Below, piece after piece: positions 31,655-53,629 of a DNA stretch of 59,077 nucleotides. Within the stretch, counting starts at the first letter, position 1. Every line of letters starts with the position of its first letter. The notes under the pieces are model-generated. The model was not told the DNA's origin. It worked only from the letters and a program-made list of their open reading frames with translations, and searched no databases. Source of the stretch: a virus; the IMG/VR virus record IMGVR_UViG_3300032236_001008, positions 1-59,077 of that record; one strand, 5' to 3'. The position numbers and the translations under genes are program-made.

Positions 31655-31731
31655 TGTCCGACCGAGGATCCCCAGTCCAAAGCAAAGTGGCGTTTTAAGT
31701 CACTTGCAGAAGGCGTCTCACGACGAGCTCC

Positions 31732-37965: not shown

Positions 37966-37968
37966 AAC

Positions 37969-38124
37969 CTATTCTCCTATTCCGTGGGCGCGTTCGATGG
38001 CGCGGGCGAACTCTAATAACCTAGGATTGAATGAGTAAAATTCACTCATTATCTCTTTTATTTGTTCTTCGGTCAACGGGGTACGTTGCGCATCTTGCCG
38101 GTCTTGTGTGGTGAAGGTCGTCAT
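37969..38124 (-). CDS. Small conserved phage protein (51 aa)
   Basis: The start at 38124 gives MTTFTTQDRQDAQRTPLTEE followed by EIMSEFYSFNPRLLEFAR and AIERAHGIGE. This C-terminal pattern recurs in small phage proteins of unknown function. The longer start at 38184 would overlap the upstream gene heavily. ATGA overlap supports the choice. Confidence 0.55.
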   Translation of the reverse strand: MTTFTTQDRQDAQRTPLTEEQIKEIMSEFYSFNPRLLEFARAIERAHGIGE

Positions 38125-38318
38125 ACCTTTTCTACCTCTGTCCATGCTGCAAAGTAGTAACGCTCGCCGTCTGTGCCTTCGCATGGTGCGTACATGCCAT
38201 CGACGTGGGTGTACTTGTACGTTACGTTATCGGCAGGCTGTGGGGCCGCTGGTGGCACCTTGGTCTCTTGATCAATCACTTTAAAGTTGTCGCCACGTTG
38301 TAATTTATAAAGTTCCAT
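38121..38318 (-). CDS. Small protein of unknown function (65 aa)
   Basis: A 65-residue beta-rich protein (LYKLQRGDNFKVID, YKYTHVDGMYAPCEG, RYYFAAWTEVEKV), perhaps a small SH3-like barrel. A strong AGGAGAT site precedes the ATG. Confidence 0.55.
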   Translation of the reverse strand: MELYKLQRGDNFKVIDQETKVPPAAPQPADNVTYKYTHVDGMYAPCEGTDGERYYFAAWTEVEKV

Positions 38319-38319
38319 G

Positions 38320-38574
38320 TTATCTCCTAAACTGTGCTATTGGTTTGCGCCTGCCGTACGCACGGCGGATCTTTAGTGCGTGGACGCTACCAAACGTTCT
38401 GTTCTGCCAGCCTTGGTGTGCCCTGCGAATCTGTACCATCTTAAACCGAATCCAGCGCAAACGAAAGCGCTTCTTGCCGGCATACTGTAGCAACGTACGG
38501 CGCTTACCGACCCCACCAAAGATGTTGGTAAAGTCGTTGCGCTTAATGCGTTTGCGAAAGTTAAACTGTTTCAA
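38320..38574 (-). CDS. Very basic small protein (84 aa)
   Basis: A TTG start overlaps the primase stop (TTGA). The 84-residue product is about one-third Arg/Lys (RKRIKRNDF, KKRFRLRWIRFK, RRAYGRRK), so binding to nucleic acid is plausible. Low complexity makes the call uncertain. Confidence 0.42.
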   Translation of the reverse strand: MKQFNFRKRIKRNDFTNIFGGVGKRRTLLQYAGKKRFRLRWIRFKMVQIRRAHQGWQNRTFGSVHALKIRRAYGRRKPIAQFRR

Positions 38575-40892: not shown

Positions 40893-40928
40893 ATGCATAT
40901 ACTAATGCAAAAATGGTGGTTTTGTCAT
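40892..40928 (-). promoter_or_regulatory. TTGCATTAGTA promoter of the primase unit
   Basis: On the minus strand TTGCATTAGTA at 40910-40900 followed by TATGCATATG. The GGGCG half is absent and AAATG stands in its place. Predicted start around 40894-40892, at or next to the primase start codon. Confidence 0.55.
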
Positions 40929-40943
40929 TTCACAATGTGAAAT
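40927..40943. promoter_or_regulatory. Perfect 17-bp palindrome, likely operator
   Basis: ATTTCACAATGTGAAAT is a perfect palindrome around a central A, placed at the -35 to -45 region of the primase promoter. Position and symmetry suggest a repressor- or activator-binding site. No regulator gene was identified. Confidence 0.55.
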
Positions 40944-40947
40944 AAAT

Positions 40948-41166
40948 TTGTCAGGGTAGTATGGGTTGTCAGGGTTTGATTTTTGTTCATTTTTCCATTT
41001 TTTCCTTTGCTTGACTCCAATAAAATCAACAACTTACTGATAAAATTGTCAGGGTAGTATGGGTAGTACCCCTCTAAATGACTTTTTTTTAGATTTTTTA
41101 AAAATAAAAATAAAATATTCTGAATGGACTTGACTTAGACCCTGACAACCCATACTACCCTGACAA
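40948..41166 (-). repeat. Control module A: inverted TTGTCAGGGTAGTATGGGT repeats around an AT-rich core
   Basis: The 19-mer TTGTCAGGGTAGTATGGGT occurs on the plus strand at 40948 (followed by a second TTGTCAGGGT) and 41046, and inverted at 41139-41166. Between 41065 and 41138 lies an A/T-rich stretch. The same order of elements, including TAAGTTGTTGATT, occurs in opposite orientation at 52152-52368. It stands just upstream of the primase promoter. Origin, enhancer or partition function is possible. Confidence 0.8.
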
Positions 41167-41176
41167 ATGATAACTT

Positions 41177-41371
41177 TTAGTTATATAGACTGTACCCTTT
41201 CCTAGCAATATGGTTATAAGCCCATTTTCTGAACTCTACCCGCTTTTCGGAGGTTTGCTCATCGTTTTCATCCCATTGGGCATCGATGATATGCTCCCCG
41301 TTGCCGTCGTGAAATTCAATCCGTAGCAAATTGCCGTCTTTGTCATAGACATCGGTTGGAATTGCCTTCAT
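41177..41371 (-). CDS. Small protein of unknown function (64 aa)
   Basis: A 64-residue protein (DVYDKDGNLLRIEFHDGNGE, EKRVEFRKWAYNHIARKGY) with a beta-hairpin and a C-terminal helix. It is the last gene of the sigma-factor unit, just before control module A. Unknown family. Confidence 0.52.
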   Translation of the reverse strand: MKAIPTDVYDKDGNLLRIEFHDGNGEHIIDAQWDENDEQTSEKRVEFRKWAYNHIARKGYSLYN

Positions 41372-41373
41372 AT

Positions 41374-41694
41374 TTACTCCTTTATCTTTGAATAACTGTC
41401 AACTACCCAACTAGACTTGTCTTCCCATGAGTCCTGTGTGCCATAATCACCCCTACTCATACGCATACGATCACGCTCTCTTTGTGGGGGTTCAATTGCC
41501 AGCCAGGCAGAGAACGCATCTTTATATTCCTGCCAATCGGGATTTGCTTCGTAAAATGGATGGTTAAATCCAGCCAAATCCACAGTAGATAGCACATCTG
41601 CCTGTCTAATCCACTTTTTTGCTCTTTTAACTATGCCCATCTTATTCCTTGCGGTTATATAGCGGTCATATGCTTTTTTCTGTTCTTCAGTCAT
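41374..41694 (-). CDS. Protein of unknown function (106 aa)
   Basis: A helical charged protein (EEQKKAYDRYITARNKMG, FYEANPDWQEYKDAFSAWL). It overlaps the end of the sigma-factor gene by 8 bases, so the two are co-expressed. No DNA-binding motif is evident; a sigma-associated factor is only a guess. Confidence 0.5.
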   Translation of the reverse strand: MTEEQKKAYDRYITARNKMGIVKRAKKWIRQADVLSTVDLAGFNHPFYEANPDWQEYKDAFSAWLAIEPPQRERDRMRMSRGDYGTQDSWEDKSSWVVDSYSKIKE

Positions 41695-42259
41695 CGTTGC
41701 CTTCCTCCAAAAATTTCTCTTGTTTTAAATTGCTAAGTGATATCGGTTCTTTGCCGATATGTCCTTGTAATTGGCTTATCTTTGCTTCAGATATGCCCAT
41801 GATGGTGGCTAACTCTGACACTTTGGGTTCTCGCCCAAGTATTTGGGACAGATTACGCTTATTGTAGTTTAGCTTTTTAATCTGTTCCATGATGTTGATT
41901 GGTAAACGAATGATGTTTGCGGTATTGTCTAAATCCCTACGCACCCCTTTCTCGATGAACGACTTTGCGTATGTGGCAAATCTTGCGTTATTCGTAGGCT
42001 TCCATCTTTTGGCTGCCATAAACAATGCCTCATTACCCATCGCAAGGATATCCTCGACAGGCACTTTACTGTGATGCCAAGCAGTCATCTTACGCACGAC
42101 ATAAACCACAAAGCGTAAGTTATGGGTGATGAGTTTGTCTAACGCATCGTCATCACCCTTTTGTATCTGCTTGGCTAACTGATGTTCTTCCTCTATGGGT
42201 AAAGGTTCAACTCCATAGAGGGATTGTAAGTAATCGCTTAATAAATCATTTTCTTTCAC
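41687..42259 (-). CDS. Sigma70-family RNA polymerase sigma factor without region 4
   Basis: GTG at 42259 with AGGAAA 7 bases upstream gives 190 residues. Region 1.2 (DLLSDYLQSLYGVEPLPIEE, QLAKQIQKGDDDALDKLI), region 2 (HNLRFVVYVVRKM, DILAMGNEALFMAAKRW, NARFATYAKSFIEKGVR, IRLPINI) and region 3 (REPKVSELATIMGISEAKIS) are clear. The protein then ends, so the -35-binding region 4 is missing. It may direct host RNA polymerase to the phage TGCATTAGTA promoters. TTG at 42274 is a weaker alternative start. Confidence 0.83.
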   Translation of the reverse strand: MKENDLLSDYLQSLYGVEPLPIEEEHQLAKQIQKGDDDALDKLITHNLRFVVYVVRKMTAWHHSKVPVEDILAMGNEALFMAAKRWKPTNNARFATYAKSFIEKGVRRDLDNTANIIRLPINIMEQIKKLNYNKRNLSQILGREPKVSELATIMGISEAKISQLQGHIGKEPISLSNLKQEKFLEEGNDD

Positions 42260-42410
42260 CCGCGTTTCCTTCAAATATTAACTGCAACAACTGTGGGAAA
42301 ACACATAATAGACCCCCAACAATCATAGCAATCAAGCCAAAAGTGATACCGCCCCCTGTTTCTATTGCACAAAAAGCGATAACAATAAATACGATTCCTA
42401 ACATTTTCAT
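42246..42410 (-). CDS. Small two-helix membrane protein (54 aa)
   Basis: A 54-codon ORF with two hydrophobic helices (MLGIVFIVIAFCAIE and FGLIAMIVGGLLCVFPQLLQ). ATGA overlap upstream and 14-base overlap with the sigma gene. Function unknown. Confidence 0.55.
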   Translation of the reverse strand: MKMLGIVFIVIAFCAIETGGGITFGLIAMIVGGLLCVFPQLLQLIFEGNAGERK

Positions 42411-42586
42411 AGTGGTGATTCCTCTAAAAGTAATTTTGCCATTTCATACTGATTTGGCTGTGGTGGTAGTTTGACCAATTTTGCCCCATTGGTCAGGTAG
42501 GGTGTTGCTTCTGTTTTGCTTGCAAATTTCCTGATCGAATCTCCAAATTCGTCAATAAGTATAAATTTGTAGGCGGACTTTTTCAT
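42407..42586 (-). CDS. Small protein of unknown function (59 aa)
   Basis: MKKSAYKFILIDEFGDSIRK opens a 59-residue protein that appears to be a beta-hairpin plus helix (QYEMAKLLLEESPL). First gene of the sigma-factor unit. Family unknown. Confidence 0.5.
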   Translation of the reverse strand: MKKSAYKFILIDEFGDSIRKFASKTEATPYLTNGAKLVKLPPQPNQYEMAKLLLEESPL

Positions 42587-42744
42587 TTTTTAATTATACC
42601 ATAAAAGGTCAATTTGCCGAGTAAAATCAAAATGGGATAAGTCCTTTAAGGCGGAAAAAATTTTTTTATGCGTTCCCCCACCCTGTTTAAACTTACTGTG
42701 CATAGATACATATGTGTTTAAACGAGGTCGTAGGGTTAAAAAAA
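42587..42744 (-). promoter_or_regulatory. Intergenic region before the sigma-factor unit
   Basis: 158 bases without a gene, AT-rich, with two GTTTAAAC copies (42685, 42716) 31 bases apart and an A/T tract (42655-42668). It holds the likely promoter of the sigma-factor unit, but no clear -10/-35 pair is visible. Confidence 0.4.
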
Positions 42745-43095
42745 TTATTCAATGACATAGTAGGCACTATCTGATACTTTTTGACCCACACCCTCAATAG
42801 AATCCCCTATTTGACATATCTGCAATACTGCAATTCTCTCTTTAATCCACTTGGGCATATCCCCTATGTTTAAACGCGTTTTGCTGACTAAATTTTTTTC
42901 GTGGGCGGGCATGGCAAAACTATACAATGCGACTGTGCCATCATCATGGAATCTAACCCGCCACACCTGTTCAATGGTGCGGTGTAAATCCTCTGCAATC
43001 ATGCACAGATAATCTTCGGGTAGTAAGACAGGGCTATTGCCCTCCATGACGATATCGTCTATGCGGGCTATTGATACATTACTAATTATTGCCAT
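42745..43095 (-). CDS. Protein of unknown function (116 aa)
   Basis: A 116-residue protein (LPEDYLCMIAEDLHRTIEQV, then RVRFHDDGTVALYSF). Its C-terminal half (ERIAVLQICQIGDSIEGVG ... DSAYYVIE) is related to the end of the 278-residue protein at 43508 (KLFVLDIGDKQEFVEDIG ... GAYWIIA). Start follows GTTTAAAC directly. Confidence 0.55.
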   Translation of the reverse strand: MAIISNVSIARIDDIVMEGNSPVLLPEDYLCMIAEDLHRTIEQVWRVRFHDDGTVALYSFAMPAHEKNLVSKTRLNIGDMPKWIKERIAVLQICQIGDSIEGVGQKVSDSAYYVIE

Positions 43096-43097
43096 GT

Positions 43098-43301
43098 TTA
43101 AACTGATCTCATTATGTCTGCTACTTCTTTGGTGATCTCTACATACGATTCAGTAGATACATTCAGCATTTTGTGGTGGTTATAACTCCACATATCAAAA
43201 CTGCGTGGCGGTTGTTCGTTGAAATCTAGCCAATCAGGTAGATCAGCAACTCCCACATCACCAAACTTCTTTCCCATCAGATATCTATACCTTGTGGACA
43301 T
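43098..43301 (-). CDS. Small protein of unknown function (67 aa), paralogue of the next gene
   Basis: A 67-residue protein ending VEITKEVADIMRSV; the neighbour at 43305 ends VKITKEVADIMIGV. The stop codon is the TAA inside GTTTAAAC, directly before the next ATG. Domain role unknown. Confidence 0.52.
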   Translation of the reverse strand: MSTRYRYLMGKKFGDVGVADLPDWLDFNEQPPRSFDMWSYNHHKMLNVSTESYVEITKEVADIMRSV

Positions 43302-43304
43302 TGT

Positions 43305-43523
43305 TTAAACACCTATCATTATATCAGCAACTTCTTTGGTTATCTTAACTATTTTATGATGTTCGGGGCGAATGGATTGATACGAATATGCATCATTATC
43401 AGCATCAACATACCATCGTAGGTCTATGATAAGCGGGTTATCTTGCACAATCTCATCGACCACGCAAAGATAACCCTCGTCATCAACTAATAACCAATCA
43501 CCAACTTTTAGGCGATTATCCAA
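43305..43523 (-). CDS. Small protein of unknown function (72 aa)
   Basis: RLKVGDWLLVDDEGYLCVVD suggests an SH3-like beta barrel; the last 14 residues are shared with the gene at 43098. The stop is nested in GTTTAAAC. Duplication of a small gene is likely. Confidence 0.52.
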   Translation of the reverse strand: MDNRLKVGDWLLVDDEGYLCVVDEIVQDNPLIIDLRWYVDADNDAYSYQSIRPEHHKIVKITKEVADIMIGV

Positions 43524-44344
43524 TATGCACCATCGTTTTCTTTTAGTCCAATATCTTCGACAAACTCTTGCTTATCGCCAATATCTAGCACAAACAGTTT
43601 ACCTTTGATGTTATCGGGTAATGCATCTTTAGATGGCACTTTAAATGGTTGCTCACCTTTGGTAGAGTTTAAACGATACTGCACTTCATTGTCTTTGACT
43701 AAAACAAAGTAGTGATCGGGGTCATAATTAGAATACTTGGCGATCTTCTCGGTGTTATCTACCAAATATAAGATCATCTTTTCAACTTTAGGATTCTGAA
43801 ACTTATGTCCCTGTTTGTGTAAGCCAATCAAATCTTCTGCAAATAACTGAATGTCATTACAAGTGTTGTTCCTGATCTCCCACCCCATGTTATATCCGAT
43901 TGCCTCCACCTCTTGCCTAAACTTTCGTCTTGCCCTGTCTGCAATCTGATCGAATGTAAATGGTTTAAACACTTTCTTTGCCACTCGCACAATGTTTTTA
44001 CTATGGATAGAGTATTTATACGCACCCTCACCCCCATATGTATGCCTACCATCAACAATATTTATGCTAGTGATGCCATACTTGGGTTTATGGGATTCGC
44101 TATTGTTGTAATAGTTTGATACCTCTAGCACACCAATATGATTGTTTAGATCACTAGAATGGAAAGCATATACCCCATCACAAACACCATTGGGGTATTC
44201 CTCTTTCACTATCCCCCATGTGTTTATGTTTTGGTGTTTAAACGAGATGTCGGGCATTACCTTAGCGATGTCGTTCATTAAGTTTGACAAATACTCTACT
44301 GTGTCAATACCATTGATGTTTACTGTTTTGATTTTGTTTGTCAT
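43508..44344 (-). CDS. Protein of unknown function (278 aa)
   Basis: A 278-residue protein of mixed fold (VEYLSNLMNDIAKVMPDIS, FTFDQIADRARRKFRQEVEA). Its C-terminal 60 residues are related to those of the protein at 42745. No enzymatic motif is visible. Four GTTTAAAC copies lie within it or at its edges. Confidence 0.6.
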   Translation of the reverse strand: MTNKIKTVNINGIDTVEYLSNLMNDIAKVMPDISFKHQNINTWGIVKEEYPNGVCDGVYAFHSSDLNNHIGVLEVSNYYNNSESHKPKYGITSINIVDGRHTYGGEGAYKYSIHSKNIVRVAKKVFKPFTFDQIADRARRKFRQEVEAIGYNMGWEIRNNTCNDIQLFAEDLIGLHKQGHKFQNPKVEKMILYLVDNTEKIAKYSNYDPDHYFVLVKDNEVQYRLNSTKGEQPFKVPSKDALPDNIKGKLFVLDIGDKQEFVEDIGLKENDGAYWIIA

Positions 44345-44345
44345 G

Positions 44346-45293
44346 TTATCTATACCAATTCTTATATCTGTCGTGGGTTAATTGTCCAAGTGGCACTTCT
44401 GTTTTCTTACATGGTTTCACAATTCTAAATAGATCATTACAAATCTCTTTCGGCAATTTGTGTCGTTCATGTATTTGCTTTTCACCCGAGCCATAATATC
44501 TGTGGGTAATTTTATGCTTATAGCGTTCTACCATGTTTAACCATGAATCAGGCACATTACCATCTTGGGTTGGTTTAAACAATGCTATTGCCTCGTCTGC
44601 ATAAATCATTCGGTCATCATTACCAACAACTGCTTTATAAATTGGATTACCATACTCCCATTTATTTTCTACAATATCGCACATGATGTCATAGTATGCC
44701 ATGAATGGTTTGATGCTCTCACGCAACTGCTTAGTCTGTGTTCTATCTAGGGTGTGTTTAAACTCTCTGTGGACTACTAGCGGTAGCCAATGGTTTTCGC
44801 CCACCTTGCGTTGGAATGTAATATCCCCCAACTCAATCGAATAAAACTTATTGTCGTAGCGAACATACTTACTAGCACGATGGTTTACCATGCCAAAATC
44901 GGGCGGTAGGTTGAAATTGTAAAACCAAAATGTCGATGATGACGAAAATGCTCTTGGGTATAAATCCATTGATGGTGTTTGACCCCATACATTTTTAGGT
45001 GTATGGATTGTCATAAATTCCATGCCATTGTTTAAACTCCATGTGATCGCTTTGTTGTGGTTGTTGCGGTGTTGGTAATAGTCGAATGTAATGTAATACT
45101 CCGTATCGCTTACCTTTATCATGCGTTCCCATGCCCTATCTCTGCGGTTAATTGGGCGAATGTTTTGATCTTTGCGTTTACCACGCAAGGGTATTGTATC
45201 TTCGTATTGTTTTTGCACTTTGGCAAAATCATATCTACCACCTTGATTTTGTTGCACATCATACGGACTGCACGATTGTCTATAATATCCCAT
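44346..45293 (-). CDS. Protein of unknown function (315 aa)
   Basis: Start at 45293 with GAGG six bases upstream (an earlier start at 45311 would add MKERIK). The N-terminus is Tyr/Gln/Arg-rich (GYYRQSCSPYDVQQNQGG) and the body is beta-rich with many Tyr/Trp. The C-terminal part is basic (YKHKITHRYYGSGEKQIHER). No family was recognised; nucleic acid binding is possible. Confidence 0.58.
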   Translation of the reverse strand: MGYYRQSCSPYDVQQNQGGRYDFAKVQKQYEDTIPLRGKRKDQNIRPINRRDRAWERMIKVSDTEYYITFDYYQHRNNHNKAITWSLNNGMEFMTIHTPKNVWGQTPSMDLYPRAFSSSSTFWFYNFNLPPDFGMVNHRASKYVRYDNKFYSIELGDITFQRKVGENHWLPLVVHREFKHTLDRTQTKQLRESIKPFMAYYDIMCDIVENKWEYGNPIYKAVVGNDDRMIYADEAIALFKPTQDGNVPDSWLNMVERYKHKITHRYYGSGEKQIHERHKLPKEICNDLFRIVKPCKKTEVPLGQLTHDRYKNWYR

Positions 45294-45294
45294 C

Positions 45295-45486
45295 TTAATC
45301 CTCTCTTTCAATATCGTAAATTGCTAACCATTGTTTAAACACTTCGGGGTATGCCCCTTGAATCCAATCATATAAATGTATTGGGGGTGATTCGTTTTTG
45401 TGGAGATTGTGCAATCTTTCCTCGATCTGTTCATTCACCCACCAATCATCTTCGGGTTGATCACAAGGGTTGTCATATTCTCGCAT
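45295..45486 (-). CDS. Small acidic protein (63 aa)
   Basis: A 63-residue protein (REYDNPCDQPEDDWWVNEQI) acidic and Trp-rich, helical at the C-terminus. It starts right after GTTTAAACA. Function unknown. Confidence 0.52.
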   Translation of the reverse strand: MREYDNPCDQPEDDWWVNEQIEERLHNLHKNESPPIHLYDWIQGAYPEVFKQWLAIYDIERED

Positions 45487-45489
45487 TGT

Positions 45490-46674
45490 TTAAACCTCTA
45501 TCTTTATGGTTTGACCTATGGGCGATTTCACATCGCTACATATTGTCCACAAGGTAGGGCAATTCCATTGTCCACCCCAATCACTTCCTACATAGCCATC
45601 GGTAAGAATGATGGCACAAACAGGGTCAATCTTATGCTTACGCATATAGCGGGTGATACATGATGGGCTTGTGCCACCACCACCTTTGGGCTTGGTGCTA
45701 GATGTCATGCGGTCTGCATCGTTTAAACCATACACCTCATGCCCCGCCACATCACAATCCCAATACAGTAAATCTACCTGTTCAGGATTCATGTTCTGCA
45801 TGACACTTGCCACCTCACTAATGAATCGGTTTAACACCTCGCCATAAATACTGCCTGATGTGTCAATGGCAACAACAACTCTACCCATTGATTCACTTAT
45901 TGTAGATGGCATATAAATATCATGTTGTAGCCATCTGCGGTTAGGTTTTCGCCATGTTGAATCGTCTTTGCCTTGCGATACGCTAGATACAAACTCCCTA
46001 AGTGCCTCTTTCCAATCTACCTTTGCACTCATAAGATCGGTAAAACTGCGGTCAATGTTCCCACCAACTTTACCCGCTAAAATTGCACCTTGACGAATGG
46101 CTTGGTCAATCTCTTTGGCTAACTCGGTTTTCTCGGCATCGTTTAAACCATCTGCCCCCTCCCAATCGTGTTCATCAAATCCACCATCTGCGTTGGGGTT
46201 GTCGCATGGCTCACCACCATTACCTTTGGGTCTTGGCGGTTGTTGGGGTAGTAAAGCAAACACCTCGGCTGAGTTTAAACCACGAAACTTCTCATTGACC
46301 AATGCCCCATCGGGTAAGACTACAAATTTGTTTGACCTTTCCGATTCGTCTTTGATTTCAAGATTGATAACATAATCACAAGCCATGTTAGCCCTTTCGG
46401 GGTCTTGCTTGTGTAGGTGTTTCCATGTGAGTAAATGGCGATACATCTTGTGCTTAGCCTCATGCAAAATCAAGCCACGCAACTGCGGGTCGTTTAAACT
46501 CATTACAAAATCCCTACCAAACTTAACATCTTTACCATTGGTGCAAGCGGTTAGTGTCTTGTCATCTATCTTTGTTTCACCAATCATCAAGATACCCGAA
46601 TAGGCTACAAACTGCGGGGACTTCATTAAATCAATGTGGCATCTTTCAATGCGTTGTTCTGCGGTAAGTGTCAT
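45490..46674 (-). CDS. VWA-domain protein with HExxH motif (MoxR partner type)
   Basis: A 394-residue protein. H71-E-A-K-H75 (LILHEAKHKMYRHL) is a zincin-like motif in the N-terminal helical domain (DUF2201-like). After a Pro/Gly-rich linker comes a von Willebrand A domain with the metal-ion site D271-T-S-G-S275 (VVVAIDTSGSIYGEVL), and ILTDGYVGSDWGGQW completes it. Proteins of this layout pair with MoxR AAA+ ATPases, and one is encoded at 47573. They may act as a chaperone or metal-insertion pair; target unknown. Confidence 0.8.
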   Translation of the reverse strand: MTLTAEQRIERCHIDLMKSPQFVAYSGILMIGETKIDDKTLTACTNGKDVKFGRDFVMSLNDPQLRGLILHEAKHKMYRHLLTWKHLHKQDPERANMACDYVINLEIKDESERSNKFVVLPDGALVNEKFRGLNSAEVFALLPQQPPRPKGNGGEPCDNPNADGGFDEHDWEGADGLNDAEKTELAKEIDQAIRQGAILAGKVGGNIDRSFTDLMSAKVDWKEALREFVSSVSQGKDDSTWRKPNRRWLQHDIYMPSTISESMGRVVVAIDTSGSIYGEVLNRFISEVASVMQNMNPEQVDLLYWDCDVAGHEVYGLNDADRMTSSTKPKGGGGTSPSCITRYMRKHKIDPVCAIILTDGYVGSDWGGQWNCPTLWTICSDVKSPIGQTIKIEV

Positions 46675-46676
46675 GT

Positions 46677-46853
46677 TTAAACACTCCCCATCTGAAAGAG
46701 TTTAATTGCTTGTAGTGGGTCGGTTGCCATCATGGTAATGGTTTTCGGTTGCCATGATGTATCTACCAACTGCTCAAAACTAACTTCGTGCTTGGCATAT
46801 TCGTCAATGCTTTCCATGTCAATGCACCTTGCCATAATGTTTTTGGTTTCCAT
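46677..46853 (-). CDS. Small protein of unknown function (58 aa)
   Basis: A 58-codon ORF (METKNIMARCIDMESIDEYA, ending LFQMGSV) whose stop TAA is part of GTTTAAAC followed directly by the ATG of the VWA gene. Helical. Function unknown. Confidence 0.52.
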   Translation of the reverse strand: METKNIMARCIDMESIDEYAKHEVSFEQLVDTSWQPKTITMMATDPLQAIKLFQMGSV

Positions 46854-46856
46854 GAT

Positions 46857-47009
46857 TTATTCCTCGTCATCTTGGGTTAATCGTTCTGCCATGCCACGAA
46901 TAAAATCTTCGGGCAAGTATCTCATAAGTAAATCTACAAGGTAGGCGGTTTCCGAATCATAAAAATAATTTACAACTGCCTCTCTTTGGTTATCGGTTAG
47001 TCGTAGCAT
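46857..47009 (-). CDS. Small protein of unknown function (50 aa)
   Basis: A 50-codon ORF (MLRLTDNQREAVVNYFYDSE, then LMRYLPEDFIRGMAERLT) starting just after GTTTAAACA. Acidic, helical. Function unknown. Confidence 0.52.
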   Translation of the reverse strand: MLRLTDNQREAVVNYFYDSETAYLVDLLMRYLPEDFIRGMAERLTQDDEE

Positions 47010-47012
47010 TGT

Positions 47013-47183
47013 TTAAACCCCCTCGCTTATCTCGTAGATTTCGCACTCAATCGTATCAACTTCGACACAATCGGGAATTGGGTTTACCATGTAAAGTTTA
47101 TCCAACTCTTGCCATGCTTGTTCCTCTGAATCGGCAACAACTGTGGTATAGATCGTGGCAACTTCTCTAAATGTGAATATCAT
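47013..47183 (-). CDS. Small protein of unknown function (56 aa)
   Basis: A 56-codon ORF (MIFTFREVATIYTTVVADSE ... CEIYEISEGV) with a ferredoxin-like beta-alpha-beta look. Its start follows GTTTAAAC directly and its stop lies in the next copy. Confidence 0.52.
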   Translation of the reverse strand: MIFTFREVATIYTTVVADSEEQAWQELDKLYMVNPIPDCVEVDTIECEIYEISEGV

Positions 47184-47185
47184 GT

Positions 47186-47374
47186 TTAAACCTCCATCAC
47201 TCTAACTCGATCACCCTCGATCACTACCTTTGCCTTACCCTCGCCAATTAGTTTAAAACCTAACTGTTGAACAATAATTGCCATCTTGTAGTGTTCCCCT
47301 TTGTGCCTGTAAAAAACTGCTAGGACTGTGGCTATCGTAGCCCATACCACTAAAAACAATTCACTCGATTCCAT
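47186..47374 (-). CDS. Small membrane protein (62 aa)
   Basis: One N-terminal membrane helix (LFLVVWATIATVLAVFY) and a cytoplasmic basic part (GFKLIGEGKAKVVIEGDRV). The stop is nested in GTTTAAAC. Function unknown. Confidence 0.52.
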   Translation of the reverse strand: MESSELFLVVWATIATVLAVFYRHKGEHYKMAIIVQQLGFKLIGEGKAKVVIEGDRVRVMEV

Positions 47375-47567
47375 AATTTTCCTCGTAGGTTAGATATGGT
47401 TTAAACACCTTGCACTTATCACCAAATACATAAAAGAGGGGGTTGGATTCTTTCACCAATTCCCGCTTTTCTTTGGCGGTCTGTGCTTGGGTCATGCGAT
47501 ATTGCAAAGACTGTTTAAACTCTTGCTCAATCTTGTTCACTCGCATTTTTAGACTGTATGTTCCCAT
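47361..47567 (-). CDS. Small protein of unknown function (68 aa)
   Basis: The ATG at 47567 lies six bases after the MoxR stop; a start at 47615 would overlap that gene by 43 bases. The protein is a charged helix (KMRVNKIEQEFKQSLQYRM, AKEKRELVKESNPLFY). Two GTTTAAAC copies lie inside the coding region. Confidence 0.5.
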   Translation of the reverse strand: MGTYSLKMRVNKIEQEFKQSLQYRMTQAQTAKEKRELVKESNPLFYVFGDKCKVFKPYLTYEENYGIE

Positions 47568-47572
47568 TACTT

Positions 47573-48649
47573 TTAATTGCTCTGTGCGAAAAGATAATTG
47601 TTTGCGGTAGCCCATTTAATAAACCCCTGTGATGTGCCTACTGTTGTCTTTTTGCTTGTTCGCATAACGCTAGTAGCGAATAGCCCTTGTGCCTCTTTAC
47701 TTAGTCGGTTCATGTATTCAATCCACTTATTGATGTTGTCCTTTTCTACCTGTTGAATGGCTGAATAGACCAACATACAAACTGCACTAGCACTCTCAGG
47801 CACTTTCGTTTTGGTTGGCTCTTTGATGATCGCCTCCCATGTTGGCAACTCATCTGTTAATTGAATGATAGAGAGCATATCGTAAGTGGCTCGGTTGCCG
47901 ATTGTTCCTTTAAGTGCGTGTGCCATAGTGTCGATGCCTAGTGGCTTTGATTTTTTGATGATATCCGATGCCCTGTTTAAACTGCGTGGTGTGCAAAATG
48001 CGGGGCGGGGTGTTCGTGGGTCGTAGATGTATTCATTGTCTGATGCGTTGGTAAAATCTTCGAATGATGCCAACATCTGCGGAAATTGTTTTACTGTGAG
48101 TAATACTTCGGGGGCGATGTCGTTGTCTAAAGCCCATTCAATCCACTCATCTGCTGATGGTTTACGCACCTTAACCACGCTAATGCGGTTTCGTGCATGG
48201 GGTGGGAGATTATCGCCTATCGCCTCATTCGCTAAGTTTGTGGTAGCGAATACGATACTGCCCTCGGGTAATGAGTAAGTGCCTAGTTTTCTTTCCAACA
48301 TCAATCTAAGGCAAGCATTCATAACTGCCTTACTTGCTTTGCCGATCTCATCAAGCATTAAAACTATGGGCTTATCGTGGTGAAAGCCAAATTCCTCGTT
48401 GGGAATAAAACTACAAACTTCGGTGTCGTTTAAACTGCGTATCTTGGGGACTAAAAAATCCCCTACATCTTTAGTAGTCATATCACCATAACAGAAGTGA
48501 TGATTCGGTAGTTTAGATTTAAGGATAGATAGAATAGAGGACTTACCTATACCCATCTCGCCCTGTGCTAGGACTGTGGTTGTATCGCCAACTGCGAGGA
48601 TAAGGTCGGCGGTTTGTTGAAGTGAAAGCGATTTGTATAAATCAGTCAT
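47573..48649 (-). CDS. MoxR-type AAA+ ATPase
   Basis: A 358-residue AAA+ protein: Walker A LAQGEMGIGKSS (K36), Walker B VLMLDEIGKAS (D100, E101), sensor 1 FATTN and an arginine-rich region (HARNRISVVKV). MoxR family members work with VWA proteins such as the product at 45490 to remodel or load partner proteins. Two GTTTAAAC copies lie in the coding part. Also found in other phages. Confidence 0.83.
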   Translation of the reverse strand: MTDLYKSLSLQQTADLILAVGDTTTVLAQGEMGIGKSSILSILKSKLPNHHFCYGDMTTKDVGDFLVPKIRSLNDTEVCSFIPNEEFGFHHDKPIVLMLDEIGKASKAVMNACLRLMLERKLGTYSLPEGSIVFATTNLANEAIGDNLPPHARNRISVVKVRKPSADEWIEWALDNDIAPEVLLTVKQFPQMLASFEDFTNASDNEYIYDPRTPRPAFCTPRSLNRASDIIKKSKPLGIDTMAHALKGTIGNRATYDMLSIIQLTDELPTWEAIIKEPTKTKVPESASAVCMLVYSAIQQVEKDNINKWIEYMNRLSKEAQGLFATSVMRTSKKTTVGTSQGFIKWATANNYLFAQSN

Positions 48650-48675
48650 GTGTTGCCTTTCTTTGGTCGATTGTT

Positions 48676-48774
48676 TTACTGCTGAAAACTTGGATTATAT
48701 AAATCAGGGGCAAAACAAAATACTAGGAATAACCCCAATAATAAAATGGTGCATAAAATATCGTCTTTACTCAT
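48676..48774 (-). CDS. Very small membrane protein (32 aa)
   Basis: A 32-codon ORF with one hydrophobic helix (ILCTILLLGLFLVFCFAPDL). Its ATG overlaps the upstream stop in ATGAGTAA. Short, but the overlap pattern is repeated at 49089-49096, which supports it. Confidence 0.45.
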   Translation of the reverse strand: MSKDDILCTILLLGLFLVFCFAPDLYNPSFQQ

Positions 48775-48952
48775 GGTGTTTAAACTCCCTTATCCAATCA
48801 ATGTAAACTTTATCAAGATCAAGCCATTGTGCCATTCGTTTTCTGTTGGGTTTATCAATGGGGTAAATCAATAGAATCTCATTACCTACTCGTTTTAAGT
48901 AGTAATAAAATTCGGGCTTGTCGGGCTTGCGATATAACTTAATCACTTGCAT
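48767..48952 (-). CDS. Small protein of unknown function (61 aa)
   Basis: MQVIKLYRKPDKPEFYYYLK and RVGNEILLIYPIDKP suggest a small beta sheet; it ends REFKHHE, where GTTTAAAC is read through in frame as part of EFKH. The start follows a further GTTTAAAC copy. Confidence 0.5.
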   Translation of the reverse strand: MQVIKLYRKPDKPEFYYYLKRVGNEILLIYPIDKPNRKRMAQWLDLDKVYIDWIREFKHHE

Positions 48953-48955
48953 TGT

Positions 48956-49096
48956 TTAAACACCCTCTAAATATTTAATGTTGGTGATTGTGGTGCTATG
49001 CGTATCAGGAAAGCGGATAGTAGCCCACTCCCCTGATATGCTCACGATCTCAACAAGATCAAGCCCGCACCACATGGCTAGATCGCCCCTACTCAT
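48956..49096 (-). CDS. Small protein of unknown function (46 aa)
   Basis: The start at 49096 (MSRGDLAMWCGLDLVEIVSI) is chosen because it overlaps the upstream stop in ATGAGTAG. The stop is nested in GTTTAAAC. It resembles the small barrel protein at 43305 in size and pattern. Confidence 0.5.
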   Translation of the reverse strand: MSRGDLAMWCGLDLVEIVSISGEWATIRFPDTHSTTITNIKYLEGV

Positions 49097-49244
49097 GGTT
49101 TTCACCCAATACAAACCCGAGGGTAAAGCAAGCCAACACAAGCCCAACAACTGCCCACAAAGGGGTTTGTTCTATAACTGCCTGAATACATAAAACGGCT
49201 AATGTGATGATAATAGATAAAATGCCTACGAATAAATTGTTCAT
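49089..49244 (-). CDS. Small two-helix membrane protein (51 aa)
   Basis: A 51-codon ORF with two hydrophobic segments (LFVGILSIIITLAVLCIQAV and LWAVVGLVLACFTLGFVLG) and an end in ENHE. Its start follows GTTTAAACAAC; its stop overlaps the next ATG. Confidence 0.55.
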   Translation of the reverse strand: MNNLFVGILSIIITLAVLCIQAVIEQTPLWAVVGLVLACFTLGFVLGENHE

Positions 49245-49249
49245 GTTGT

Positions 49250-49492
49250 TTAAACACTCCCTAAAAGATTGTCAAAATATGTTTGTGGTTGTTCGGTTGC
49301 CTTTGCACCATCTAGCCATTTATTGATATGGCGGGAGGTTGTCATACTCCATTTTTTAGCGGTGCGGTTAAATGAATAAGTGCCTTTATCAAAACTTGCG
49401 ACAGGTGTTGCATAGCTAAACAATACAATGTGTTTAGGGGTTTCTAATAGGGTCATATTAGAGGCGATAGGTTTTACTGATAAGTTTGTCAT
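49250..49492 (-). CDS. Small protein of unknown function (80 aa)
   Basis: The start at 49492 follows AAGGA. The protein (MTNLSVKPIASNMTLLETPK, then SFNRTAKKWSMTTSRHINKW) is short and basic. The stop is nested in GTTTAAAC. Family unknown. Confidence 0.52.
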   Translation of the reverse strand: MTNLSVKPIASNMTLLETPKHIVLFSYATPVASFDKGTYSFNRTAKKWSMTTSRHINKWLDGAKATEQPQTYFDNLLGSV

Positions 49493-49514
49493 AATGTTTT
49501 TTCCTTGTTTAAAC

Positions 49515-49536
49515 AAGGGGGCGGGATTGCCCCCTT
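49515..49536 (-). terminator. GC hairpin after the 67-aa gene
   Basis: On the minus strand AAGGGGGC, a 6-nt loop and GCCCCCTT are followed by GTTTAAAC. A terminator-like or mRNA-end hairpin of 8 bp; the U run is short. Confidence 0.5.
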
Positions 49537-49540
49537 ATGG

Positions 49541-49744
49541 TTAGATTGTTGGTTTGCCTAGCATCTGTGCCAATTCATTGTAAACAGATTCTCTAGTGCC
49601 TTTCAAGCCCAATTCCTTTTTGATTAGGCTATACATGGTCATGCCCCGAGATACTTTTAAGCCCTTAATTTCAAGCCCTAAGCCCCGCAAAATGGTCATG
49701 TAGCGGAATTGGTTTATCTGTGTTGGGTTGGTGATCATTGTCAT
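49541..49744 (-). CDS. Small protein of unknown function (67 aa)
   Basis: The start at 49744 (MTMITNPTQINQFRYMTILR) follows GTTTAAAC directly. The C-terminal part (SRGMTMYSLIKKELGLKGT) is helical, maybe HTH-like. Unknown family. Confidence 0.52.
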   Translation of the reverse strand: MTMITNPTQINQFRYMTILRGLGLEIKGLKVSRGMTMYSLIKKELGLKGTRESVYNELAQMLGKPTI

Positions 49745-49746
49745 GT

Positions 49747-50103
49747 TTAAACACTCCATTCGTTGATTGGGTATTGATCGGGATTGGCGAGGGTTAGCCC
49801 CTCAATGGCGGGTATGTTAGTGCCGATATGGTTATCATAAAACGAACCCCTCGGGGATTGATACACAATGGCATCACGATACACAATGCCCTTACTATCA
49901 CCTAGCACAAATCGCCCTGATAGTTTGCCTTTGCTTGCTTGGGTGTCGCTAGATGTTGCACCCGATCTAAAGTGCATCTTTGCATTGGCTTTGTCGCTAT
50001 CAAAATGCCAATATGGTTTGTAGGCAAACATCGCAACATTGGCGGGCTTGCCATCGCTACACAATACAGTCTTAGCGGTGATTCTATATACATATGTTCC
50101 CAT
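49747..50103 (-). CDS. Protein of unknown function (118 aa)
   Basis: A 118-residue beta-rich protein (MGTYVYRITAKTVLCSDGKP, YRDAIVYQSPRGSFYDNHIG). It is the first gene after the control region at 50104 and ends with its stop inside GTTTAAAC. Family unknown. Confidence 0.55.
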   Translation of the reverse strand: MGTYVYRITAKTVLCSDGKPANVAMFAYKPYWHFDSDKANAKMHFRSGATSSDTQASKGKLSGRFVLGDSKGIVYRDAIVYQSPRGSFYDNHIGTNIPAIEGLTLANPDQYPINEWSV

Positions 50104-50396
50104 TGTTCTATTTCCTTTGTAGGTTAGTGATCAATTAAGTGGAATATCCACACTCAAATTAGATCAAATTCGGGTGGGTGTGTAAAGCGATTCTTTATAT
50201 CTATTAGTAATAAAACAACGGGCTTTTATACTAAGGGTTTACCCTCGAAAATCGAGATCGTGTATGGTCTAACCCTAACCCACACACTCGCCACGAAAGA
50301 GGCTAAAAAGGGGCTTAAAATGGCTCTAAATTGATTGGGGTATTATGGCGGGTTGGTGGATTTTGGCGGGGTGGTTGTTTAAACATATGAGAGGGG
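50104..50396 (-). promoter_or_regulatory. Control region in front of the 43-50 kb unit
   Basis: Non-coding. It holds the 13-bp palindrome GTGGAATATCCAC (50139-50151), TATCTATTAGTAAT, and at 50235-50260 a 26-bp element that recurs exactly at 51428-51453, including the inverted repeat CTCGAAAATCGAG. GTTTAAAC lies at 50377. Likely promoter/operator or 5' leader region of the minus-strand unit. Exact -10/-35 not resolved. Confidence 0.6.
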
Positions 50397-50432
50397 CAAA
50401 AAAAAAATCGGGGCATAAAGCCCCGATCTGTT
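50397..50432 (-). terminator. Rho-independent terminator
   Basis: On the minus strand ATCGGGGC, loop TTTAT, GCCCCGAT and a run of nine T. It follows the small gene at 50446 and so separates the SprT unit from the next one. Confidence 0.8.
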
Positions 50433-50445
50433 TAACCCTTGCGGG

Positions 50446-50625
50446 CTAGATTCGCACTTGTGCGATTATGGTCATACCCTCTAGGTATTGAGCAAACTCT
50501 TTAGCACTCTTTAGAGTTTTAAACTCATAAACTTTATGGGCGGTTTTGATTGTGTATTTATATTTAGGTTTCGCCCTTGCCTTGAGGGTTTTAGCACTTG
50601 GGAACATATCGGTATGTTTTAACAT
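50446..50625 (-). CDS. Small basic protein (59 aa)
   Basis: A 59-codon ORF (MLKHTDMFPSAKTLKARAKP ... EFAQYLEGMTIIAQVRI), basic at the N-terminus, with a terminator right after its stop. Between the SprT-like gene and the terminator. Function unknown. Confidence 0.55.
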   Translation of the reverse strand: MLKHTDMFPSAKTLKARAKPKYKYTIKTAHKVYEFKTLKSAKEFAQYLEGMTIIAQVRI

Positions 50626-50654
50626 GGTTTATTTTCCTTTGGTAGTTTAAACAT

Positions 50655-50671
50655 GGGGGCGGTTTGCCCCC
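50655..50671 (-). other. GC hairpin after the SprT-like gene
   Basis: GGGGGC, 5-nt loop and GCCCCC, followed on the minus strand by ATGTTTAAAC. As at 49515, a GC hairpin sits right before a GTTTAAAC. There is no U run, so mRNA processing or stability is as likely as termination. Confidence 0.42.
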
Positions 50672-50684
50672 TTGCGGGGTTGGC

Positions 50685-51311
50685 TTATTCCTCGCCCTCA
50701 TCTTTGCCCTCGAGGGGTAGAAAATCGTGGGTCATATCGCCATGACCTAGCGGGCATCGTGGTGTTGCAAGTTTTAGCCACTTGCTAGATATCCGCATGG
50801 TGTAGCCACAAGCATAGCAATCACACTTGTGTAAGCGGGTGGATTGCTTTCTCATGTTTACCTGTAATGATTCATGGGGATATTCACCCGCCTCGCTAAC
50901 CCATTGGGCTAGTAATACTTTGAGGGATTCACTAGCATTGGTGCTAGTGGGTTTGCCCTCTAATCCAACAGCATAGGCACAATTCTCAAATACCTTGCCA
51001 TGACCCTCGTTTAAACCTACTGTCGCATGGCATAGCTCATGGATAAGGGTGTCTAATACTTCGATACTATTGGATTCGTTAGGCACGATCACGATTTCAA
51101 AATTGCGGTGATTGCCTTGTGAATCGGTATTGCTCATACATTGACCCGCTACGAATCGTTTTTGACCCTTGCGTTTAAATGCCCCTTTAGTGCTAAATGA
51201 ACATGAGAATTTAATATCCTCGGGGATTGTGTAGCCCTTAGATTCAAACATGGGCTTAATGAATTGCTCAGTCATATGGTTGAGCCATGATTCTCTATTA
51301 AGTAATTGCAT
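50685..51311 (-). CDS. SprT-like zinc metalloprotein
   Basis: A 208-residue protein. H91-E-L-C-H95 (DTLIHELCHATVGL) and H104 (EGHGKVFENCAYAVGL) form the SprT zinc site; C163, C165, C168, C186 and H190 make a C-terminal zinc ribbon. SprT/Spartan proteases act on DNA-protein crosslinks. First gene of its unit, behind the control region at 51312. Confidence 0.8.
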   Translation of the reverse strand: MQLLNRESWLNHMTEQFIKPMFESKGYTIPEDIKFSCSFSTKGAFKRKGQKRFVAGQCMSNTDSQGNHRNFEIVIVPNESNSIEVLDTLIHELCHATVGLNEGHGKVFENCAYAVGLEGKPTSTNASESLKVLLAQWVSEAGEYPHESLQVNMRKQSTRLHKCDCYACGYTMRISSKWLKLATPRCPLGHGDMTHDFLPLEGKDEGEE

Positions 51312-51520
51312 GGTGTTCTATTCCTATCTATTAGTGGTTAGTAATCATGTGGAAAATCCACACCTAATACTCTCATGGTTTAAACAACATTAGGATAGGG
51401 ATATACCCTTAAGGGTTTACCCTATTAGGGTTTACCCTCGAAAATCGAGATCGCAACCCCTCCGATACCTATACCCCATCGGGGGCGAAAACGGCTAAAA
51501 AGCCCCTTAAAACGATTCCT
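51312..51520 (-). promoter_or_regulatory. Control region of the SprT unit, related to that at 50104
   Basis: Holds TGTGGAAAATCCACA (51348-51362), GTTTAAAC (51378), GGGTTTACCC twice, and at 51428-51453 the exact 26-bp element shared with 50235-50260. GGCTAAAAAG and CTTAAAA also recur in the same order at both places. A duplicated promoter/operator or leader. Confidence 0.62.
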
Positions 51521-51628
51521 ATTGGATTCTCATAATGTGGAATGGCTAGGGGTGCGGGCTTGCGTAATAACCCTATAAACTAAAGGGATAAACCCTCACA
51601 CCCTCGCACCCGCATAGCCCTATCACCT

Positions 51629-51825
51629 ATGTTGCACCGCACCATATAACCACATTGGCATTATGGTTATGTTGCACCGCACCATATTGCCCGCCCTGTT
51701 TAAACACCCACCCATATAACCATATTGGCATTGTGGTTATTATGTTGCACCGCACAATGGCGTATCGGATATGTTGCACCGCACAAAGACCTTACTGCCA
51801 TTGTGGTTATGTTGCACCGCACCAT
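51629..51825 (+). repeat. Five-copy ATGTTGCACCGCAC array
   Basis: Copies start at 51629, 51669, 51742, 51771 and 51809, all on the plus strand, and continue as CATAT, CAATGG or AAAG. Between them are inverted ATAACCA ... TGGTTAT arms around an ATTGGCATT core (three times). No gene. The array resembles replication iterons or regulator-binding sites. A GTTTAAAC copy lies at 51698. Confidence 0.75.
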
Positions 51826-51982
51826 GCGTTTCACATTATGAGATTAGATTCCACAATGCGGAATAGGGGGCTTAACTTGTGAGGCGATACCCCTTTATGC
51901 AGACCCCCACCCCCCTCGGCCCGGGGGCCCCACAAAGCTCAAGTTTTTATAAAACCGCATTTTTAAAATTTTTTTGTAAAAA

Positions 51983-52368
51983 TTGTCAGGGTTGTCAGGG
52001 TTTGCTTTTTAAATTGTCAGGGTTTAATTTTTGCATTTTGTAAAATTTTTTTGTAAATTTTTTAAATAAATCAATAACTTACAAGCGCAATTAACCTACA
52101 CCCCTGATTCCGCCGTGAAAGTGTTTGATCTTATTAGATAAAGTGTTAAAATTGTCAGGGTAGTATGGGTAGTACCCCTCTATATCACTTTATTTTAAAA
52201 TTTTAAAAAATAAAAAATAAATATTATGGAGTAAGTACGTTTAGACCCTGACAACCCATACTACCCTGACAATTGGTTGCTAAGTTGTTGATTCATATAG
52301 GGCCAAATAAGAATTATTCTCAATAAAGTGCTAAAACCAAACCCTGACAACCCATACTACCCTGACAA
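51983..52368 (+). repeat. Control module B: inverted and direct TTGTCAGGGT repeats
   Basis: TTGTCAGGG copies at 51983 (double), 52014 and 52152 (full 19-mer TTGTCAGGGTAGTATGGGT), inverted copies at 52245-52272 and 52341-52368, with an A/T-rich core at 52180-52244. Order and spacing, including TAAGTTGTTGATT, copy module A (40948-41166) in the opposite direction. Directly upstream of the promoter at 52381. Confidence 0.8.
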
Positions 52369-52380
52369 TTTTGGGTCATG

Positions 52381-52417
52381 GGGCGTAAAACCCCCAGTTT
52401 TTGCATTAGTAAGTCTA
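52381..52417 (+). promoter_or_regulatory. Phage promoter motif, start codon at position 37
   Basis: GGGCG at 52381-52385, 15 nt, TTGCATTAGTA at 52401-52411, and the A of the ATG at 52417 is position 37. No ribosome-binding site is present, so the mRNA is probably leaderless. Confidence 0.72.
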
Positions 52418-52722
52418 TGAATGATTACGCATATCAAATCAAAGGAGCGTTGGAAAACGCTCAGGGCCAATTCATTGGTCTGCGAGTATTGGTTTGTGAC
52501 ATCAATAACTTTGAAATCGTGGATGTACCGGTGGAAGTCTTGGATAAAGAGACCACCAAGTATTTGCAATACCGCCTCAAAGTTACAGACGTGATAGATA
52601 TCCAGCGCTTACCTATCCCTGTTCAGAACAGAATACGCGCTCCGTTAGGGAGATGGCTCGACTACTGGGTCGTAAAAAACTTTTATGGCAATTCTATCGA
52701 ACGAAAAAGTACTAACTCTTGA
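52417..52722 (+). CDS. Protein of unknown function (101 aa), first gene of the terL unit
   Basis: A 101-residue protein (MNDYAYQIKGALENAQGQFI, VDVPVEVLDKETTKYLQYRL) with mixed fold. Its start coincides with position 37 of the promoter. It overlaps the intein-like gene by 38 bases. Family unknown; not an obvious small terminase. Confidence 0.55.
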   Translation: MNDYAYQIKGALENAQGQFIGLRVLVCDINNFEIVDVPVEVLDKETTKYLQYRLKVTDVIDIQRLPIPVQNRIRAPLGRWLDYWVVKNFYGNSIERKSTNS

Positions 52723-53629
52723 TTATTGGAAACCTGCATCTAAACTGCAAGTAGGCGATTACGTATTTGACCAGTCCGGCACCCCGGTCCAAATTAAACT
52801 GGTTCAAGAGTATCGCGCCCAATCTTGCTATGAGGTAACGTTTAATGATCACCTGCGCATATCAGGAGACGATAAGCTGGGTTTTCTTATGGAAACTCCA
52901 AAGTATCGCAAAAGAACATACGAATATAAACGTGTCCAGCCATTTAGGCGCCCGTTAAAACCATTTACTGTATCCCAGTTAGACTTACTGGAACTTAGGG
53001 ACCACAGAAAAAGGTTAATATTTTCCATACCCACTGCTAAACCATTAGCACTCCCCCACCAAGATTTACCGATACCACCATTTATCTTTGGTCTTTGGTT
53101 TTTTAATAGAAAACCATTAAACCAATCTGACTTTATTGTTGATAAGTTTAAAGATTATGGGTATAAGATTGACAAGAATGGCAATATAACGCCATCTATT
53201 ACCCAGCAGCTGGCACCCAATATCCCAACAACCATTCCGTCAAACTATTTACTAGCTTCCCCGGAGCAACGTACGGAATTATTGTCTGGCATACTGCATT
53301 CTAAGTCACGCCAATATCATGCCAAAGACGATAGATTTAGATTTTCTTCTAGCCACTATGGTACAATACTACAGATACAAGGATTAGTTGAATCATTAGG
53401 ACACAGATCAAGATTATCGTTTGATGAAACGTACAAGTATTACACCATTTCGTTTAAATCACGTACCAAATTAATGGAAGAGCAAAAGTCTCCGCCAATT
53501 AAGGTACACCAAGCTCGCCGATACGTAACCAAGATTGATTCCATACCAAATCAATCTTGCATACACATTGAAACTAATGGCAAAGACAACACGATTCTTG
53601 TAGGAGAAGGATTTATAGCATGCCGTTAA
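52685..53629 (+). CDS. Free-standing intein-derived (Hint / homing endonuclease-like) protein
   Basis: A 314-residue protein. The start (SNEKVLTLDYWKPASKLQVG, then DYVFDQSGTPVQIKLVQEY) follows intein block A, and CYEVTFNDHLRISGDDKLGF recalls block B. The middle has degenerate LAGLIDADG-like parts (FIFGLWFFNR, ELLSGILHSKS). The end YVTKIDSIPNQSCIHIETNG with TILVGEGFIACR is like block F and G but lacks the final His-Asn. The catalytic first Cys/Ser is absent at residue 1 of a splice site, so self-splicing is unlikely. It ends 10 bases inside the terL gene. Confidence 0.65.
   Translation: MAILSNEKVLTLDYWKPASKLQVGDYVFDQSGTPVQIKLVQEYRAQSCYEVTFNDHLRISGDDKLGFLMETPKYRKRTYEYKRVQPFRRPLKPFTVSQLDLLELRDHRKRLIFSIPTAKPLALPHQDLPIPPFIFGLWFFNRKPLNQSDFIVDKFKDYGYKIDKNGNITPSITQQLAPNIPTTIPSNYLLASPEQRTELLSGILHSKSRQYHAKDDRFRFSSSHYGTILQIQGLVESLGHRSRLSFDETYKYYTISFKSRTKLMEEQKSPPIKVHQARRYVTKIDSIPNQSCIHIETNGKDNTILVGEGFIACR

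Follow-up and report, generated by a model that had tools for sequence, protein, structure and literature searches.

A regularly spaced octamer palindrome in a phage gene block is associated with a SprT-like protein, its proposed reader

IMG/VR virus record IMGVR_UViG_3300032236_001008 (59,077 bases, all of which were analysed and are called the window below) contains a leftward gene cluster, divergent from the rightward genes starting near 52378, in which the 8-bp palindrome GTTTAAAC (the octamer) is repeated many times. This block encodes, near its promoter-proximal end, a SprT-like protein. Downstream of the block, on the same strand, there are a sigma-factor-like gene and replication-type genes for primase, helicase, exonuclease, single-stranded DNA-binding protein, ribonucleotide reductase and DNA polymerase; these downstream genes hold few octamers. 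Based on this gene layout, the block is probably an early operon. The octamers and the relevant genes are located as follows.

42685..51705, no strand: GTTTAAAC array, 34 exact 8-bp sites (~0.3 expected), strongly over-regular spacing
Starts of the first 17 block sites: 42685, 42716, 42868, 43096, 43303, 43667, 43963, 44236, 44573, 44756, 45030, 45333, 45488, 45721, 46141, 46273, 46492
Starts of the last 17 block sites: 46675, 47011, 47184, 47399, 47513, 47975, 48428, 48778, 48954, 49248, 49507, 49745, 50377, 50645, 51009, 51378, 51698
516..54792, no strand: ten outlying sites, at 516, 15933, 19922, 23965, 28216, 30793, 32764, 33833, 38726, 54785
45490..46674, minus strand: DUF2201 metallopeptidase/VWA-type gene, 4 internal octamers
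47573..48649, minus strand: MoxR-like AAA ATPase gene (phrog_1297), 2 internal octamers
50685..51311, minus strand: SprT-like protein, 208 aa, the proposed octamer reader
51027..51041, minus strand: HELCH (HExxH) metalloprotease motif in the translation, residues 91-95
50742..50849, minus strand: C-terminal domain with KQSTR (residues 155-159) and a predicted zinc ribbon (~160-190), the proposed DNA-reading part

An earlier sequence-only reading had counted 34 octamers in the block and 10 elsewhere, and all 44 positions match; 34 of the 44 thus sit in 15% of the record. Dinucleotide-shuffled windows contained a mean of 2.05 copies (maximum 6), and Markov models of order 2-4, computed with the octamers masked, predicted 1.8-2.2 per window and 0.28-0.34 per block (P ~1e-55 for at least 34 in the block). 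Chance or composition was thereby ruled out as the source of the count; a Markov background accounting for it had been named in the earlier reading as grounds for refutation. Its estimate of one chance copy per 65 kb was too low, the actual rate being ~1 per 27-32 kb, and the strong excess is unchanged. The ten outlying copies also exceeded the expectation of the Markov models (P ~1e-5). There are 6 one-mismatch variants in the block vs 34 exact copies, which indicates that the whole octamer is under selection.

The quasi-regular spacing seen by eye proved real. Gaps between block sites average 273 bp with a coefficient of variation of 0.43, vs 0.97 under random placement, and equally regular spacing occurred in none of 20,000 random-placement simulations; one gap is shorter than 100 bp, vs 9.9 expected. 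No period stood out for helical phasing of the sites, and a search for a longer palindrome around the octamer showed just a weak outward preference for A adjoining it.

No near-identical phages were found in the annotated collection. As relatives, we employed 80 IMG/VR loci encoding the VWA-type protein of the block, of which 23 contain 14-40 octamers and 57 contain 0-2. The VWA genes themselves have no octamer in the 57 orthologues from phages without a SprT protein and 1-4 each in the 24 with the array; similarly, 55 orthologues of the AAA ATPase gene from octamer-poor phages have none. A KQxTR domain was present in 21 of the 23 relatives with the array and in 0 of the 57 without it. The earlier reading had proposed that an octamer-free relative carrying the same genes would refute a function. 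Such phages literally exist (the 57 VWA and 55 AAA orthologues), but they also lack the SprT protein, so that the comparison identifies a partner of the octamer instead of refuting its function.

We further clustered all open reading frames (ORFs) from the full contigs of octamer-rich phages (15, large or partial) and of 4 octamer-poor phages. The SprT-like family was the sole gene family present in 14 of 14 octamer-rich genomes spanning the region, and it was found in 0 of 4 octamer-poor contigs. The octamer-rich contigs lacking the protein are G003, G017 and G025, which are fragmentary or carry the block at a contig end. An independent set of 79 loci was picked by the SprT protein only, with the 57 VWA loci lacking that protein as controls. 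GTTTAAAC was the most over-represented of all 8-mers in 40 of these 79 loci, and GTTTAAAC or a variant word, GTGTAAAC, was enriched (p<1e-4) in 56 of 79, vs 0 of 57 controls, at GC contents of 0.32-0.70. The link between the SprT-like protein and the octamer is strongly supported by these genome comparisons.

The distribution of the array was surveyed with a triple-octamer pattern. It matched 61 stretches of viral sequences, mostly dense blocks, with GC contents of 0.29-0.54, and 45 stretches in GTDB (one genome per species, ~85,000 cellular genomes). No dispersed block of the phage type was seen among the GTDB stretches, those inspected being CRISPR arrays and tandem or local repeats. Fundicoccus ignavus (L146, L150, L155, L163, L175) carries dispersed GTTTAAAC repeats with 19/158/177-bp spacing on several contigs, which form a separate cellular repeat family. 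The array is viral and recurs among many otherwise unrelated phages.

An exact palindrome with few one-mismatch variants might also, like HIP1, be highly iterated in connection with methylation; both HIP1 and a methylation mark had been suggested from the letters. HIP1 (GCGATCGC) is found throughout cyanobacterial genomes and is associated with DNA methyltransferases (PMC4390886). The array here is likewise a highly iterated exact octamer palindrome; unlike HIP1, it is viral, confined to one block that is one transcription unit, and tied to the SprT-like protein. No methyltransferase was found among the scanned window proteins (small ORFs were not all scanned), and none is common to all array phages. 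We therefore consider this explanation very improbable. What stood from the suggestion is a DNA-level iterated palindrome restricted to one block; the likeness to HIP1 did not extend beyond appearance, and the proposed methylation mark is improbable.

In named phages, the presence of the octamer could be set against the form of the SprT C-terminus. GTTTAAAC is present in 34 copies in Methylophilales phage Venkman, 16 in Pan1 and 17 in Dinoroseobacter phage R5C. Actinophages with KKQ[GST]TR bear GTGTAAAC (Stuff 42, Henoccus 41, Tallboi 26, Zeta1847 22, Liebe 17, SuMoo 16; 0.3-0.4 expected per actinophage), an asymmetric word used in both orientations (21/21 in Stuff, 22/19 in Henoccus). Phages with KQxTR replaced (Bordetella MW2, Pseudomonas Psa21, and Microbacterium Vitas, Dismas, FlameThrower and Sharkboy) have 0 or 1 motif copies, and phages with a Yuavirus-type SprT without KQxTR have 0-1. 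Changes in the element were accompanied by changed palindromes: CTTTAAAG in phages with KPSYL or SQKTY, GTGTACAC in those with KKQTTRY and GTACGTAC in those with KKARTR. SprT-bearing viral loci in which these palindromes are prominent in place of GTTTAAAC are L303, L305 and L313 (CTTTAAAG), L290 (GTACGTAC) and L263 (GTGTACAC).

These comparisons bear on whether the octamer is read by some other protein, of the host or of the phage, with SprT as a linked passenger. Sequence diversity among some of the loci is just moderate, as linkage would allow. However, among phages of a single strain, Microbacterium foliorum NRRL B-24224, SuMoo and Mabodamaca (KKQGTR) have 16 GTGTAAAC each, whereas Vitas, Dismas, FlameThrower and Sharkboy (SprT with KSRSG) have none; because the motif differs with the SprT C-terminus in the same strain, a host reader is unlikely. 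The motif is also common to unrelated hosts and GC contents, the triple-octamer matches in cellular genomes include no dispersed block of the phage type, and SprT is the one gene family common to all large array genomes. A passenger role of SprT is thus distinctly unlikely.

The window protein matches Pfam PF10263 at 26 bits, just over the cut-off, and no Pfam model fits its C-terminal domain well. In alignment A1 (19 members), the sole invariant columns are K155, Q156, T158, R159, K162 and C165, all in the C-terminal tail. The AlphaFold2 model (pLDDT 88) shows a SprT domain, a linker bearing KQSTR and a small ribbon with paired cysteines, which suggest zinc binding. The top fold match in PDB was the SPRTN entry 6mdx, a weak one (E 0.026, probability 0.82); a profile search of PDB sequences returned nothing useful. 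Like the SprT/SPRTN metalloproteases, then, the protein has a SprT domain with HExxH and a predicted fold closest to 6mdx; unlike them, it has an additional C-terminal KQxTR zinc ribbon that outlasts the protease motif, and it is associated with a specific DNA word.

As a SprT-like metalloprotease, the window protein may be proteolytic, for example on DNA-protein crosslinks. A SprT protein bound to the octamers might tether the protease along phage DNA and clear it of crosslinked proteins, defence proteins or host silencers. The window protein and most SprT-selected homologues retain HExxH (H91, E92 and H95 are invariant in alignment A4), and the weak fold similarity to SPRTN points in the same direction. 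However, PF10263 with its HExxH, present in the window protein, is missing from several array phages: several octamer phages have lost HExxH and retain the C-terminal domain, and two keep just a C-terminal piece of 55-74 aa, with dense octamers and no SprT domain detected by Pfam in their genomes. Since dense arrays, up to 57 sites, persist in phages without HExxH or any SprT domain, the array can evidently do without the protease, and we regard a tethered protease as unlikely to be what the array is for. Stand-alone KQTTR zinc-ribbon proteins of 55-74 aa, accompanied by 35-42 octamers, were observed in the L007-type podophage group, L193 and L226 (G007, G026).

The positions of the sites relative to sprT and its promoter were compared among the loci. 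The window has a candidate operator upstream of sprT:

51378..51385, no strand: octamer preceding the sprT start codon by 66 bp, a proposed autoregulatory operator; a promoter at this exact place is putative

Relatives L243, L244 and L247 have an octamer 63-78 bp upstream of sprT, and the cognate motif was found within 100 bp upstream of the start codon in 24 of 57 sprT genes, with 4.6 expected. The motif is located between -35-like and -10-like boxes of sprT in L272, L298, L312, L308 and Streptomyces phage Stuff, and 8 bp after TATAAT in ep3, PT1 and KA2-1; in Tallboi, several intergenic copies directly follow TAGACT. Such operator positions near sprT suggest autorepression. In 41 loci, the mean density of sites per kb was 0.15-0.3 in the interval 5-10 kb upstream of sprT and 0.5-0.7 in the interval 2-4 kb upstream. 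It reached 1.1-1.9 (overall ~1.5) in the stretch that starts shortly ahead of sprT and extends ~9 kb downstream. Oriented sigma-70-like promoter contexts numbered 30 of 2582, vs 13.6 after shuffling; the excess was small and confined to the -35/-10 spacer, with none after -10 or before -35. Tiling of sigma-70 promoters was therefore rejected: the array is not a promoter array.

The 34 block sites comprise 18 inside genes and 16 at junctions or in intergenic regions. The sequence-only reading had placed them both in genes and between genes, which is correct, and in different frames, which narrows to two stop-free frames for the in-gene copies (F-K, 8; L-N, 10). In the third frame are nine junction copies, in which GTT-TAA is the end of the upstream gene and ATG follows 0-3 nt on, often with a Shine-Dalgarno sequence directly before the octamer.

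46675..46682, minus strand: example of a fused junction, GGGGAGT-GTTTAAAC-ATG; TAA stops the upstream gene and ATG opens the VWA-type gene
43096, 43303, 45488, 47011, 47184, 48954, 49248, 49745: further fused junctions of the same layout

The Shine-Dalgarno/octamer/ATG layout occurred 104 times in the relatives vs 9.0 with shuffled flanks (~10-fold), and 107 times in the SprT-selected loci vs 13.8. Where in-gene sites are best conserved, the octamer is kept while flanking codon positions vary, and the residues encoded by in-gene octamers differ from those of octamer-free orthologues (YGLND vs YGQGD).

The sites might instead nucleate a nucleoprotein structure of the early region, for condensation, protection or the organisation of replication or packaging, and not serve as operators. 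Over-regular spacing, coverage within long genes and the location of most sites away from promoters are consistent with such a structure. Against it, several lineages have sites overlapping the promoter of the SprT-like protein itself, the array keeps to a single transcription unit, and the interval from Shine-Dalgarno to ATG is strongly enriched in sites. In our judgement a structural role of this kind is improbable.

Two regulatory arrangements of mycobacteriophages are comparable. Cluster A phages (L5, Bxb1, TipsytheTRex) have an immunity repressor, with a helix-turn-helix and a second DNA-binding domain, and stoperators, which are 13-bp, asymmetric and mostly in one orientation (PMC6550527, PMC9283540). 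As with stoperators, many exact short sites lie along transcription units, some in promoters including the regulator's own region and most not promoter-associated, and the regulator, as proposed here, is encoded by the phage. Unlike stoperators, the site is a perfect 8-bp palindrome with more copies, and GTGTAAAC occurs in both orientations; the protein that tracks the sites is SprT plus a zinc ribbon, no search having been aimed at homologues of the cluster A repressor. Because of the palindromic site, the two orientations of GTGTAAAC and the different correlated protein, the array is not a member of the cluster A stoperators, although of the known systems it would work most like them. Cluster K phages have Start-Associated Sequences (SAS/ESAS), a 13-bp non-palindromic GGGATAGGAGCCC a few bp before the ATG of many genes in one orientation, and carry a SprT relative too (PMC3203893). 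The junction copies near start codons are similar, whereas the octamer is an 8-bp palindrome and 18 of 34 block copies are inside genes. SAS was rejected as the same system, the SprT-like protein of the cluster K phage Adephagia having no KQxTR.

Based on the density profile and the sites at promoters, we propose an autorepressed DNA-binding protein that tiles its own transcription unit. The C-terminal KQxTR and zinc-ribbon domain of the SprT-like protein would read GTTTAAAC, a step well supported by the genomic associations. The protein would repress its own promoter via the overlapping site, as suggested by site positions in several phages, and then occupy the array along its leftward, probably early, operon, at junctions and in gene interiors. 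By analogy with the L5 stoperators, the occupied array may damp or block transcription elongation, or may affect translation start at junction sites, and so shut off the operon. The protease domain would be an add-on dispensable for site recognition. Taken as a whole, with binding to the octamer, autorepression and stoperator-like damping of the operon, this is a rather probable reading. The earlier suggestion of a protein-binding site or transcription element is, by the same genomic comparisons, probably right.

Several observations weigh against this proposal. About 23 of the 79 SprT loci were not enriched; many are short, but some long ones (L268, L273 and L281) have no enriched word either. 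Enterobacterial phages hold just 2-7 copies, and in 11 of 33 SprT loci tested the sites upstream of sprT outnumber those downstream. The loci share ancestry, so the counts are not phylogenetically independent events, and each class of altered motif represents one or two lineages. Phages with GTTTAAAC and phages with GTGTAAAC have an identical KQxTR, so the choice between the two words must depend on another residue. Finally, because most sites lie away from sigma-70-like promoters, control of elongation or translation by the array is a guess.

Other features were observed around the array. Directly downstream, at 41687-42274 on the minus strand, is a phage sigma-70-like factor with regions 2 and 3, region 4 not being recognised. 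Two intergenic regions (51983-52360 and 40948-41158) contain 13 copies of CCCTGACAA/TTGTCAGGG with AT-rich stretches nearby; these clusters are iteron-like and possibly origins, and the same word is prominent in relatives L244-L246 and L275. Adjoining the sprT upstream region, 51628-51822 contains five TATGTTGCACCGCAC(C) in degenerate 37-nt repeats. The terminase large subunit (TerL) gene is split (52378-55065), with an intein-like ORF at 52685-53629 followed by the main TerL ORF at 53620-55065. A DUF2815 RNA (RF03084), unrelated to the array, lies at 28660-28722 on the minus strand, just upstream of the single-stranded DNA-binding protein gene; the Rfam scan revealed nothing else.

The literature searched, in which subscription journals were thinly covered, contained no account of this octamer or its variants, or of a phage SprT protein that binds DNA. 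As a tentative possibility, the array may belong to an undescribed, widespread phage system, in which a SprT-derived zinc-ribbon protein recognises a strict palindromic octamer that covers the protein's own operon as a shut-off array, its specificity co-evolving with KQxTR and its built-in metalloprotease being a possible self-inactivating or target-cleaving switch. In many phages the protein is annotated just as 'transcription elongation protein' or 'SprT-like protease'; the analysis gives its tail a candidate function, the site-specific reading of DNA, and links that tail to a DNA word readable from sequence alone. A puzzling repeat thereby becomes a system testable in cultured phages of E. 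coli, Klebsiella, Arthrobacter, Microbacterium and Streptomyces. Selection at the DNA level is so strong that it coincides with altered residues in the encoded proteins, and the naturally varied protein-site pairs are material for a new DNA-recognition code. The SprT-like protein would also be a candidate case of a regulator carrying its own protease.

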